This document shows, in pieces, positions 8,001 through 25,706 of a stretch of DNA of 27,776 bases. Numbering within the stretch: the first letter of the stretch is position 1; each line of letters opens with the position of its first letter. The notes under the pieces were generated by a model that did not search any database, had not been told where the DNA came from, and saw nothing but the letters and a program-made list of their open reading frames with translations. Both the position numbers and the translations under genes were made by a program. Source of the DNA: a bacterium (GTDB taxonomy: Bacteria > CAIWAD01); NCBI GenBank assembly GCA_030685015.1, contig JAUXWS010000007.1:1-27776 (forward strand). The letters run 5' to 3'.

Positions 8001-8032
8001 CGGTCGCCGCCCGGTCGCCGTAATTGGTCGCC
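8001..8032 (+). repeat. Tandem GGTCGCC repeats, probable integrase arm-type sites
   Basis: Three direct copies of GGTCGCC occur at about 8002, 8013 and 8026. The first two are 11 bases apart, one helical turn. They lie 34 bases upstream of the integrase start, where arm-type binding sites are expected. The 21-base block 8001-8021 differs at one position from 25686-25706. Confidence 0.55.
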
Positions 8033-8034
8033 AA

Positions 8035-8105
8035 GATGTGACAATGAGTGTAAAAATGCAGTGAGATTTCGAGAAGAGAAAAATCGGAAGCCTTTGATGT
8101 GACAA
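8035..8105 (+). repeat. 10-bp direct repeat GATGTGACAA
   Basis: GATGTGACAA occurs at 8035-8044 and again at 8096-8105 in the AT-rich interval between integrase and chromosome. The copies could be the element boundary, an excision-factor or regulator site. There is no further proof, and a chance repeat cannot be excluded. Confidence 0.35.
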
Positions 8106-8182
8106 GGATTTTATCGTACCGAAGAATAATACATCACGTCTTGAGATCGTAGTCGCCCTACTGCCCCATCAGGAGAAGATCG

Positions 8183-9322
8183 ATGCATCTGCCATTCGTC
8201 GAAGCGGCCCCGGAGTTGTCCCATGTGGGGAACAACCTCCTGGATCGTCGCCTGCCGCCCGAGTTCACCTTGATCAAACTCCTGGCCCTGCTCAAGCTCA
8301 GTCCGCCCGGCGGCCGCCGGCCACTCGTGCGCACCATCCTCGATCTTCAGGAGCCGGTGCAGGCCGGGGACCGACCCGCCTTCCGCGCCTGGCTGGCCTG
8401 CTGTCTCGACTGCGCGCTGGGGTCCGCCGCCATCGGGGAAGCGGCCGCCCGGCACTTGCCCGGCGATCTGCGCCTGCGCGAGGCCGACCAGCTTCATGAG
8501 GCGGCTCAACGCCTTGAGGGCCAGCCCCGACGCCAGCGCCGCCTCTTGGAGCAGGAGCTGCTGCTGCGCAGCTCCCTGCCCGAGGACTGGCAGTTCCACC
8601 GGGCCAAATGGCGCTATCTCGAGCTGCAGGCGGAACAGACGGGCTCCCTGCTCACGCCCGCCGAAGCCTCGCGCCGGGCCAGGGGCGTCGGCATCTTCTT
8701 CCATCCGGACCAGCTTCAGCCTGGGCCGCATCACCGCTGGTTCAGCCTGAGACGGGCCTTGGACATGCTGGAGCCGGCCGCCTGGCTGGACCTGCTCGAC
8801 CACCTGTGCCACGGTCGGCCCGTGGAGTTGTCCCTGCCGGCCGGCCTCTGGACGCCGCTGCGCCCCTGGCTCTCTTTTCTGACCGGCGGGGCGGGCATCC
8901 CGCTGGTGGAGTTCTATGCCGGCAGCCTGCCCGACGACCCGCCCACGGCGGCCCGACCGGGTTTGCTCATCCTCCACGGCGAGGAGGATCTCGATCCCCG
9001 CCTGCAGGATTGGGGCATGAAGGCCTCGGGCCTGGGCTGGCATCTGATCCTGGTCCGCGCGCCACGCTGTCCGCTGGCCAGTTGGCTCAACCGGGTCAGC
9101 GCCGGGCCGGCGGGCGAGGAATGGATGCGCCGCCAGGTGGTGGCGGGGGAACCGACGGAACAGATCCTGCCGCTCAAAGCCTTTGTTCGGCAAATGGAGC
9201 GGCACTACATCCTGGACGTGCTGGGGCTGCATGATGGCGTGAAGACCCGCGCCTGTGAACGTCTGCAGATCTCCCGGCAGACGCTCTACTCCAAGCTGGG
9301 GGCGGAAGGAGTGGAGGCATGA
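8183..9322 (+). CDS. Degenerate NtrC-like protein with C-terminal Fis-type HTH
   Basis: A 379-residue protein; start at 8183 has AGGAGA seven bases upstream. The last 50 residues (ILPLKAFVRQMERHYILDVL, then HDGVKTRACERLQISRQTLY) closely follow the Fis-type DNA-binding domain of NtrC-family enhancer-binding proteins. Residues about 260-295 (LLILHGEEDLDPRLQDWGMK) resemble the Walker B region of their AAA+ domain (LFLDEI..L....Q), but no Walker A loop and no GAFTGA sigma-54 contact motif is present. The N-terminal 200 residues are Arg/Leu-rich and unrecognised. I infer a DNA-binding regulator that has lost ATPase and sigma-54 activation. It is the first chromosomal gene beside the integrated element. 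Its 3' end overlaps the convergent CorC-family gene by 37 bases. Confidence 0.6.
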   Translation: MHLPFVEAAPELSHVGNNLLDRRLPPEFTLIKLLALLKLSPPGGRRPLVRTILDLQEPVQAGDRPAFRAWLACCLDCALGSAAIGEAAARHLPGDLRLREADQLHEAAQRLEGQPRRQRRLLEQELLLRSSLPEDWQFHRAKWRYLELQAEQTGSLLTPAEASRRARGVGIFFHPDQLQPGPHHRWFSLRRALDMLEPAAWLDLLDHLCHGRPVELSLPAGLWTPLRPWLSFLTGGAGIPLVEFYAGSLPDDPPTAARPGLLILHGEEDLDPRLQDWGMKASGLGWHLILVRAPRCPLASWLNRVSAGPAGEEWMRRQVVAGEPTEQILPLKAFVRQMERHYILDVLGLHDGVKTRACERLQISRQTLYSKLGAEGVEA

Positions 9323-10560
9323 GGGGATCCTGGCTGCCCGTCCTGATCCTGACCCTCGCCATTGCCTCTGGATGGCACATGCTGGACGATGACATGGCGC
9401 AGGTGGCGGGGCGTGGCCGATACGATGGAGACTTCGAGGGGCGGCAGGAGGAGGCGTTCCCCCTCGGCCGGGATTCGCCCCAGCTGTTCCACCACCCAAC
9501 CGCCCAGGGTGTCCGCCGCCTCCGTGGGGAGCTGCAGGCCTGTCCCTTCCGCGAAGATGTCCAACCTCAGCCGGGCCGACACAAAGAAGCGCCCATCCGC
9601 CAGGGGGATGAGCGAGCGCTGTGCCTTGTCGTGCTCGTCGTCGATGGCGCCGACCAGATCCTCAAGCAGATCCTCGAGGGTCAGGAGGCCGGCTGTTCCG
9701 CCGTACTCGTCCACCACCACGGCCAGCTTGGACTGACCTTTGCCGAAGGCGGCCAGGAGATCGCGCGCCCTCATGGTGGCGGGCACGAAGAGCGGTTGGC
9801 GACGGATCTCGTCGAGGGTGGCCGGCAATTGGAAGAGGTCCCGCGCCGTGATGTAGCCCGTGATGCTGTCCAGATCCCGCCGGTAAAGCGGCAGGGCGGA
9901 TTTGCCCTCTCGATGGATCAACTCGGCCGCCAGGGCTGGTGAAGCATCGGCGGGCAGGGCCAGCAGTTCGGTGCGCGGGGTCATCAATTCGCCCAGGCGA
10001 CGCTGCCGCAGGTGCAGGGCGCGCCGGATCATGCGGTGCTCGCGCTGGCCCAGGTCCTCGCTCAGTTGATGCAGCTGGGCCCGCAGCTGGTGGGCCTCGC
10101 GCTCCGGCTGACCCGGCAGCAGGCGGGTGAAGAGGGCGACGGGGGCGCTGATGGGCTTCAGCAACAGGTGAATGCCTTGCAGAGGCAGGGCCAGGGCGGG
10201 AAAGAGCCGGTGGGAGCGGCCATGGATCAAGCCTTTGGGCAGGGCCTCGCCTCCCACGGTCAGCAGGATGGTGGCGGCCAGACCGGTCACCCACTCCGGC
10301 CATCCCAAGTGCAGGCCGACCAGGGTCGCGATCGTGGCGAAGCTGATGTTGGACAAGTTGTTCGCCACCAGCAGGGTGACGAGCAGCGAGTCGGGCCGCC
10401 GATGCCAGGCGGCGGTCCACGCGGCGCCGGCCCGCCCCTGGCGCAGCCAGATCAGCACATGGCTGCGTCCCAGTCCGGTGAAGGCCAGCTCCGAGGCGGA
10501 GAGGAAGCCCGACAGGAGCAGGGTGACAGCCAGGGCGGCCAATCCGTTCAAGAGGTCCAC
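9286..10560 (-). CDS. CNNM (DUF21)/CBS/CorC-HlyC family membrane protein
   Basis: A 424-residue inner-membrane protein of the CorC/HlyC family, linked to magnesium/cobalt efflux and divalent-cation homeostasis. Domains in order: DUF21 transmembrane domain, residues 1 to about 190 (LLLSGFLSASELAFTGLGRS, LLVTLLVANNLSNISFATIA); two CBS domains, about 195-310 (MTPRTELLALPAD, VVVDEYGGTAGLLTLEDLLE); CorC_HlyC domain, about 325-405 (DTLGGWVVEQLGRIPAEGE). The last 25 residues are a polar, disordered tail. The start codon is GTG at 10560, with AGGGGG six bases upstream. It overlaps the YigZ-family gene by 13 bases and is the last gene of the fatty-acid operon. No terminator is seen because its end overlaps the convergent gene. 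Confidence 0.9.
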   Translation of the reverse strand: MDLLNGLAALAVTLLLSGFLSASELAFTGLGRSHVLIWLRQGRAGAAWTAAWHRRPDSLLVTLLVANNLSNISFATIATLVGLHLGWPEWVTGLAATILLTVGGEALPKGLIHGRSHRLFPALALPLQGIHLLLKPISAPVALFTRLLPGQPEREAHQLRAQLHQLSEDLGQREHRMIRRALHLRQRRLGELMTPRTELLALPADASPALAAELIHREGKSALPLYRRDLDSITGYITARDLFQLPATLDEIRRQPLFVPATMRARDLLAAFGKGQSKLAVVVDEYGGTAGLLTLEDLLEDLVGAIDDEHDKAQRSLIPLADGRFFVSARLRLDIFAEGTGLQLPTEAADTLGGWVVEQLGRIPAEGERLLLPPLEVSIVSATPRHLRHVIVQHVPSRGNGEGQDQDGQPGSPHASTPSAPSLE

Positions 10561-25236: not shown

Positions 25237-25565
25237 GATTCACGTCCTTCTTTTGGTGCAATCCCAGGACGCCGAGGGCACCCGGCGTACTTCCTATCGT
25301 TGTGGTTCAAGGTCAGGTTCAGGGCACGCGGGGCTTCACCGGCGGCATCGAGTGATCCGGTCCGGAGAGGCACGCCACACAGTCACAAAAGCAAAGCTAA
25401 ATGGCAAGTGTCAAGTGCGTATTCGCAAGCTCTCAGAATTGCGTTGAAGGTGGGCAATCACCCCACGCCCTGCCTGGATTGGTTCCCGATCGACGCACTT
25501 TCCCTGCCCGCCCGATTGACAGGCCCCGGCCCCTGTCCTATCTTCTTGGCCTTCATCCAGGCGAT
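25237..25565. other. Intergenic region between the lamin-tail gene and tRNA-Arg
   Basis: No protein gene is supported in these 329 bases. The right end carries the tRNA promoter listed separately. The left end must carry the minus-strand promoter of the lamin-tail gene, but no clear box is recognised. Confidence 0.5.
25516..25544 (+). promoter_or_regulatory. Sigma-70-type promoter of tRNA-Arg
   Basis: A perfect -35 box TTGACA (25516-25521) and a -10 box TATCTT (25539-25544) are separated by exactly 17 bases. The -10 box ends 21 bases before the mature tRNA 5' end. Confidence 0.8.
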
Positions 25566-25639
25566 GCACCCATAGCTCAACTGGATAGAGCGTCTGACTA
25601 CGGATCAGAAGGTTAGGGGTTCGACTCCTCTTGGGTGCA
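25566..25639 (+). tRNA. tRNA-Arg (anticodon ACG)
   Basis: A 74-base cloverleaf. The acceptor stem GCACCCA/TGGGTGC is fully paired with discriminator A at 25639. The anticodon arm TCTGA-CTACGGA-TCAGA places ACG at 25600-25602, and the T arm AGGGG-TTCGACT-CCTCT has the usual TTCGA loop. CCA is not encoded. The ACG anticodon is normally edited to ICG to read CGU, CGC and CGA. A phage-like module begins directly downstream, so the 3' end is a likely integration site. Confidence 0.96.
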
Positions 25640-25648
25640 CTGACAGTC

Positions 25649-25679
25649 AAAGGGTTCCGCCACCGGCGGGACCCTTTTT
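25649..25679 (+). terminator. Rho-independent terminator of tRNA-Arg
   Basis: AAAGGGTTCCGCC (25649-25661) pairs with GGCGGGACCCTTT (25665-25677), with a one-base bulge, and runs into TTTTTC. It begins ten bases after the tRNA. Confidence 0.85.
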
Positions 25680-25685
25680 CGTTTC

Positions 25686-25706
25686 CGGTCGCCGCACGGT
25701 CGCCGT
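25686..25706 (+). repeat. Tandem GGTCGCC repeat, probable integrase arm-type site
   Basis: Two GGTCGCCG units 11 bases apart, the same spacing as next to the integrase at 8001-8021; the two 21-base blocks differ only at one base (A at 25696 versus C at 8011). A further inverted ACGGCGAC lies at 25728-25735. It lies 46 bases from the tRNA 3' end, a suitable distance for an attachment-site arm. Confidence 0.55.

Follow-up and report, generated by a model that had tools for sequence, protein, structure and literature searches.

Probable sibling prophages in a tRNA-Arg gene and in a regulator leader hairpin, with putative arm-type sites in common

The 27,776-nucleotide window analysed here is the whole of contig C7 (JAUXWS010000007.1) of a draft bacterial genome (assembly GCA_030685015.1; 3.61 Mb in 105 contigs, 97% complete). 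Its two flanks belong, with high probability, to two sibling prophages of temperate phages, X and Y, which enclose a piece of chromosome and have arm-type integrase sites in common. X lies in a tRNA-Arg gene and Y in a hairpin-forming dyad in the leader of a regulator gene. They are inserted in the same orientation ~17.4 kb apart. Both ends of the contig fall within prophages, whose remaining ends sit on other contigs of the assembly. Genes were called from Pfam and PHROG matches and tRNAs with ARAGORN.

Arm-type repeats at the inner edges of the prophages

The original prediction called attention to two 21-base blocks, CGGTCGCCGCCCGGTCGCCGT (8001-8021) and CGGTCGCCGCACGGTCGCCGT (25686-25706), and both are found as described, on the same strand and identical at 20 of 21 positions. 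They form the sole non-overlapping direct pair of this similarity in the window. The pair alone is just modestly beyond chance, since 2 of 40 sequences simulated with a first-order Markov model of the window contained such a direct pair, and it is judged real because of its recurrence and position rather than from pair statistics alone. A scan of the 3.6-Mb genome allowing up to 2 mismatches found three copies of the 21-mer: the two of the window and C88:28004-28024, which adjoins a sister integrase. A diverged fourth pair, at C27:31653-31670, adjoins a sister lysis gene. This distribution supports the proposal that the repeats are putative arm-type sites bordering the mobile flanks on their inner side.

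The repeats consist of GGTCGCC words with a period of 11 bp. Candidate P-arm sites of Y (8001-8032, plus strand) have the word at 8002, 8013 and 8026, the third copy (8026-8032) extending the left array, and their position relative to the integrase gene is that seen on C88, C58 and C100. That integrase, a 394-residue tyrosine recombinase (6783-7967, minus strand), has Phage_integrase and Arm-DNA-bind_3 domains in Pfam, and alignment shows conservation of R238, K265, H328/R331, H354 and Y363, the R-K-H-R-H-Y catalytic set; its activity and arm binding are predicted from these features. Candidate P'-arm sites of X (25686-25706, plus strand) start 89 bp past the overlap start of that prophage.

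GGTCGCC pairs are also present on C60 and C79 in apparent coding sequence and were judged to be chance occurrences. Together with the modest statistics of the window pair, they would fit a repeat of another kind (a terminator, an operator or a GC-rich chance word). We consider this very improbable, given the arm-binding domain of the integrase, the constant spacing of the pairs to the overlap, and the different words that siblings carry with the same 11-bp period and place, identical or nearly so at the two ends wherever both could be read. GGTCGCC was likewise rejected as a genome-wide repeat: beyond the C60 and C79 words it is limited to the three 21-mers and the C27 pair, and the dispersal over many unrelated sites that the original prediction regarded as fatal to its proposal was not seen.

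Partner ends of prophages X and Y

Prophage X is read from its sequence as inserted in tRNA-Arg(acg), with its lysis end at the right of C7 and its integrase end on C88. The tRNA gene (25566-25640, plus strand; ARAGORN) is rebuilt at attL of X and contains, in its anticodon loop (25598-25604), the 7-bp overlap CTACGGA that links the C7 and C88 ends. The lysis-end segment (25605-27776, minus strand), within which the contig terminates, carries a lytic transglycosylase (SLT) lysis gene (25777-26838, minus strand; Pfam SLT, PHROG endolysin). The DNA of this gene is 93% identical to that at the C27 end of Y. SLT paralogues adjoin tRNA-Met on C100 and tRNA-Asn on C87. On C88 the arm copy lies 36 bp from a 389-residue integrase 70% identical to that of the window, and ~150 bp past the arm is the 3' half of tRNA-Arg, starting in the anticodon loop (CTACGGATCAGAAGG...). 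This displaced fragment (C88:27809-27853) has 96% identity over 45 bp to the window region. Since the sole tRNA-Arg(acg) match found in the assembly is on C7, the right flank and C88 are taken as the tRNA-rebuilding end and the integrase end, respectively, of one prophage.

Past tRNA-Arg(acg), arm-like pairs of other words are found in G002 (C167), which like G001 is a genome of the same genus used for comparison, and in the further comparison genome G003 (C66 84280); in G001 (C134) the contig ends there. From these sequences the tRNA-Arg(acg) site looks like a shared hot spot.

Prophage Y has both ends identified by sequence, the integrase end at the left of C7 and the lysis end on C27. In the window, attR of Y (8155-8175, plus strand) reads GCCCTAC (phage half), TGCCCCA (overlap, 8162-8168) and TCAGGAG (chromosomal half). 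C27 carries in order CTCCTGA-TGCCCCA-GTATTTT, GGTCGCCGTTTCGTCGCC and the SLT gene before the contig ends. The two junctions have exactly 7 bp in common, TGCCCCA, and joining their chromosomal sides restores CTCCTGA-TGCCCCA-TCAGGAG, a perfect 7-7-7 dyad (CTCCTGATGCCCCATCAGGAG). The joined site matches the dyad form CTCCTGT-N7-ACAGGAG of the unoccupied sites, which read CTCCTGT-GCCCCCA-ACAGGAG in G001 and CTCCTGT-CGCCCCA-ACAGGAG in G002. The chromosome on either side agrees: genes named from their translations as an M23 peptidase, a bactofilin-like protein and ATP synthase subunits lie upstream of the target gene in G001, and the same genes terminate C27.

Overlap start and lysis-side arm pair are separated by 89 bp in X, Y and G002 alike, by 90 bp on C100, by 88 bp on C87 and by 104 bp in G003. 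The agreement in Y is independent support for this end pairing, because its overlap was placed by identity between the two junctions and not by spacing. No tRNA-like sequence was detected by DNA similarity in 8033-8183, in line with the remark in the original prediction that the tRNA 3' end is not repeated near 8.1 kb; Y leaves no displaced tRNA fragment there because it did not use a tRNA.

From the helix-turn-helix (HTH) gene next to Y to tRNA-Arg, the distance is ~17.3 kb in both the window and G001 (C134), and the two are collinear. The DNA between the flanks (8169-25597) is therefore ordinary chromosome, encoding CNNM/CorC and YigZ/UPF0029 proteins, RNase III, an acyltransferase, a Na/H exchanger and others (Pfam). 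Its genes lie on both strands, so that the proposed location of all genes on the minus strand holds for the identified flank genes and not for this segment.

The flanks were correctly recognized as the integrase end and the lysis end of one type of prophage: window positions 15-7463 align to the integrase end of the sibling prophage on C100, and 25770-27776 to its attL-side (lysis) end, with 74% identity. These alignments to opposite ends of C100, and arms one base apart, are also what a single prophage would give if it had taken up the 17.4 kb or if a misassembly had closed the contig. We give this almost no credence, as the 17.4 kb are collinear with the G001 chromosome, the two ends of C7 have no 25-mer in common, and each flank has a separate partner end, on C88 for the right and on C27 for the left, with its own overlap. 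The separate partner ends and the lack of a common 25-mer led us to reject a circularised phage and two copies of one prophage collapsed by the assembly; of the options put forward in the original prediction, two related prophages is the one that stands.

Several points weigh against the assignment of two prophages around a chromosomal piece. Neither the attP junction of an excised Y circle (GCCCTAC-TGCCCCA-GTATTTT) nor the empty Y site (the dyad above) was found in the assembly. The C7 and C88 ends of X are paired by attachment-site logic only, and relatives do not confirm synteny across tRNA-Arg, as their contigs end there or the site is occupied. More than one strain may be represented in the draft genome, and the assembly lacks the interiors of X and Y. 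The C7-left segment of Y and the C88 segment of X have identical stretches of at least 60 bp in common, which may be the reason why the assembly broke.

Proposed change of target in prophage Y

The target of Y is not a tRNA but a leader hairpin at the ribosome site of a gene (8183-9322, plus strand) whose product has a C-terminal Fis-type HTH (Pfam HTH_8), with orthologues in G001 and G002. The half-sites of the two prophages are alike (TCAGAAG in X, TCAGGAG in Y), and their overlaps, CTACGGA and TGCCCCA, are different. We privilege a common mechanism, modelled on the lambda-type pathway, in which the crossover site of each prophage would be flanked on both sides by arm sites made of two CGGTCGCCG words with an 11-bp spacing, those on C27 being slightly diverged. 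The arm-binding domain of the integrase would hold these words, and its core-binding and catalytic domains would make the cuts that flank the 7-bp overlap. X would have recombined in the anticodon loop of tRNA-Arg, rebuilding the tRNA, and Y at the 7-7-7 inverted repeat of the leader hairpin, which retains a half-site resembling that of the anticodon stem around another overlap. Y is inferred to descend from an ancestor that used a tRNA and to have switched target; in the simplest history, its lineage kept the arm words and the half-site preference and changed the overlap.

The main rival to target switching is off-target integration followed by repair. Y would have entered a secondary site when tRNA-Arg was already taken by X, its original attP overlap CTACGGA being replaced by repair of the mismatched event. 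X does occupy tRNA-Arg on the same contig, the arm word is common to X and Y and the half-site nearly so, and ICEBs1 (PMC3715440) and phage Fionnbharth (PMC10865867) provide documented cases in which tRNA-specific tyrosine integrases used secondary sites. However, without repair a mismatched event would normally yield, after replication, an attL and an attR with unlike overlaps, and TGCCCCA is present at both Y junctions. Moreover, the X, C100 and C87 sites carry a tRNA 3' half, and the lysis-side core flank of Y (GTATTTT...) has none. We regard this explanation as unlikely, though it deserves more weight than the other alternatives. Y resembles ICEBs1 and Fionnbharth in the presence of a tRNA-type integrase at a non-tRNA site and differs from them in its identical overlaps, which suggest from the junction sequences a matched rather than a mismatched integration.

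The system is of a known kind. As in a lambda-type attP, an N-terminal arm-binding domain goes together with arm-site pairs flanking the core and a 7-bp overlap, whereas here the arm pair, with predicted binding, is a direct repeat of 11-bp period whose word and orientation are common to both sides. At the integrase end of X, C100, C87/C58, C82 and the Acidithiobacillus homologues a tRNA 3' fragment is left behind, as with the prophages and islands that use tRNA anticodon loops (Islander, PMC4383910; mycobacteriophage Int-Y, PMC10865867); Y, without a tRNA, uses a hairpin before a protein gene and adds an informative case of probable target switch. With arm words and spacing equal, half-sites nearly equal, and overlap and target different, X and Y provide a natural pair to understand how a tRNA-targeting integrase moves site. 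They also illustrate that puzzling repeats on a contig of a draft genome can be explained even when no reads are at hand, the partner ends having been found through the 7-bp overlap and its fixed distance to the arm, a rule usable to pair broken prophage ends in draft genomes.

As RNA, the dyad forms a hairpin that covers the ribosome-binding AGGAG of the HTH gene. The insertion of Y disrupts this predicted structure, the minimum free energy of the 60-base leader being -18.3 kcal/mol in the joined form versus -8.9 kcal/mol in the occupied one. The insertion also cuts the gene off from its upstream region, because a likely -10 element, identified by eye, is on the C27 side; a promoter scan of the new, occupied leader gave a single weak match, to which no meaning was attached. 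Altered expression of the HTH gene is a prediction from this arrangement. A broader proposal, which we find improbable as a whole, is that the Y lineage switched from tRNA anticodon loops to the regulator leader hairpin with arm words and half-site kept and only the 7-bp overlap changed, and that the insertion removes the promoter and opens the hairpin, making lysogeny a heritable switch of the regulator.

The leader region of the hairpin over the ribosome site is at window positions 8162-8182 (occupied), L041 5577-5597, L040 (reverse strand) and L042 ~8340. The leader hairpin is intact with the orthologues of G001 and G002. G003 has a related gene preceded by a hairpin of other sequence and equal pairing role (GGTTCTCC/GGAGAACC, 7-nt loop).

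Sibling prophages and further elements

C100 contains a contiguous sibling prophage of ~73 kb. It is ordered as tRNA-Met, an arm pair (CGGTTGCACC twice), the SLT gene, ~73 kb of phage DNA, the integrase, an identical arm pair and a tRNA-Met fragment; tRNA-Met and its fragment have CTCATAATCTC in common. This sibling encodes baseplate, tail fibre, head-morphogenesis, primase, helicase and methyltransferase proteins and is the only one of the three in which phage structural genes are seen, X and Y showing a lysis gene at their ends. In the integrase-end segment of Y (1-7967, minus strand; Pfam/PHROG), inside which the contig begins, a DEAD/Helicase_C_2 helicase (214-2235), a DNA/RNA non-specific endonuclease (4814-5860) and a BRO-N-like protein (5878-6681) are all encoded on the minus strand.

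The layout of C100 is found again in Acidithiobacillus homologues. The upstream region could be read for 21 sibling integrases, among them 11 from Acidithiobacillus and related records. In a tally by eye, 20 of these 21 show a tRNA 3' fragment past the arm sites; Y is the exception. Most have a clear word pair of 11-bp period, and the word varies between elements: GGTTGCACC, TGTCTCCTT, GGTCCCAT and GGGCTAACC occupy the equivalent place. Where both ends could be read, the word was identical or nearly so at both. Relatives in viral sequences are scarce. The relative search found no match to the integrase, helicase or lysis gene in viral contigs, where two arm-word matches came without an integrase match and one attP-word match with only a distant lysis-domain match (33%). 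In phage records, among the best matches listed, the integrase relatives all have less than 35% identity.

Integrases with ~40% identity, mostly from Acidithiobacillus (L076-L087), have tRNA fragments beside them and arm pairs of the word GGGCTAACC or ATCCAACC; in L078 and L084 there is a second pair, with a period of 12 bp (TGGGTAAC), past the tRNA fragment. Within the source genome, tRNA-Asn at C87 116259 (L029) is accompanied by a GTCTCC-type arm pair and a disrupted SLT gene; a matching tRNA-Asn fragment and an integrase are found at C58 31600-31914 (L024). By their sequences these loci are likely the opposite ends of one more, partly decayed sibling prophage. Next to an integrase at C82:44715-45222 (L026 ~8700-9250), two tRNA 3' fragments follow each other, separated by arm-like words; this appears to be what is left of tandem integrations at a single tRNA. 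A 55-bp segment of the window (3414-3468) recurs at a second place, out of collinear order and with 81-87% identity, in the C100 and C58 siblings (L069 3906-3960, L070 8398-8449).

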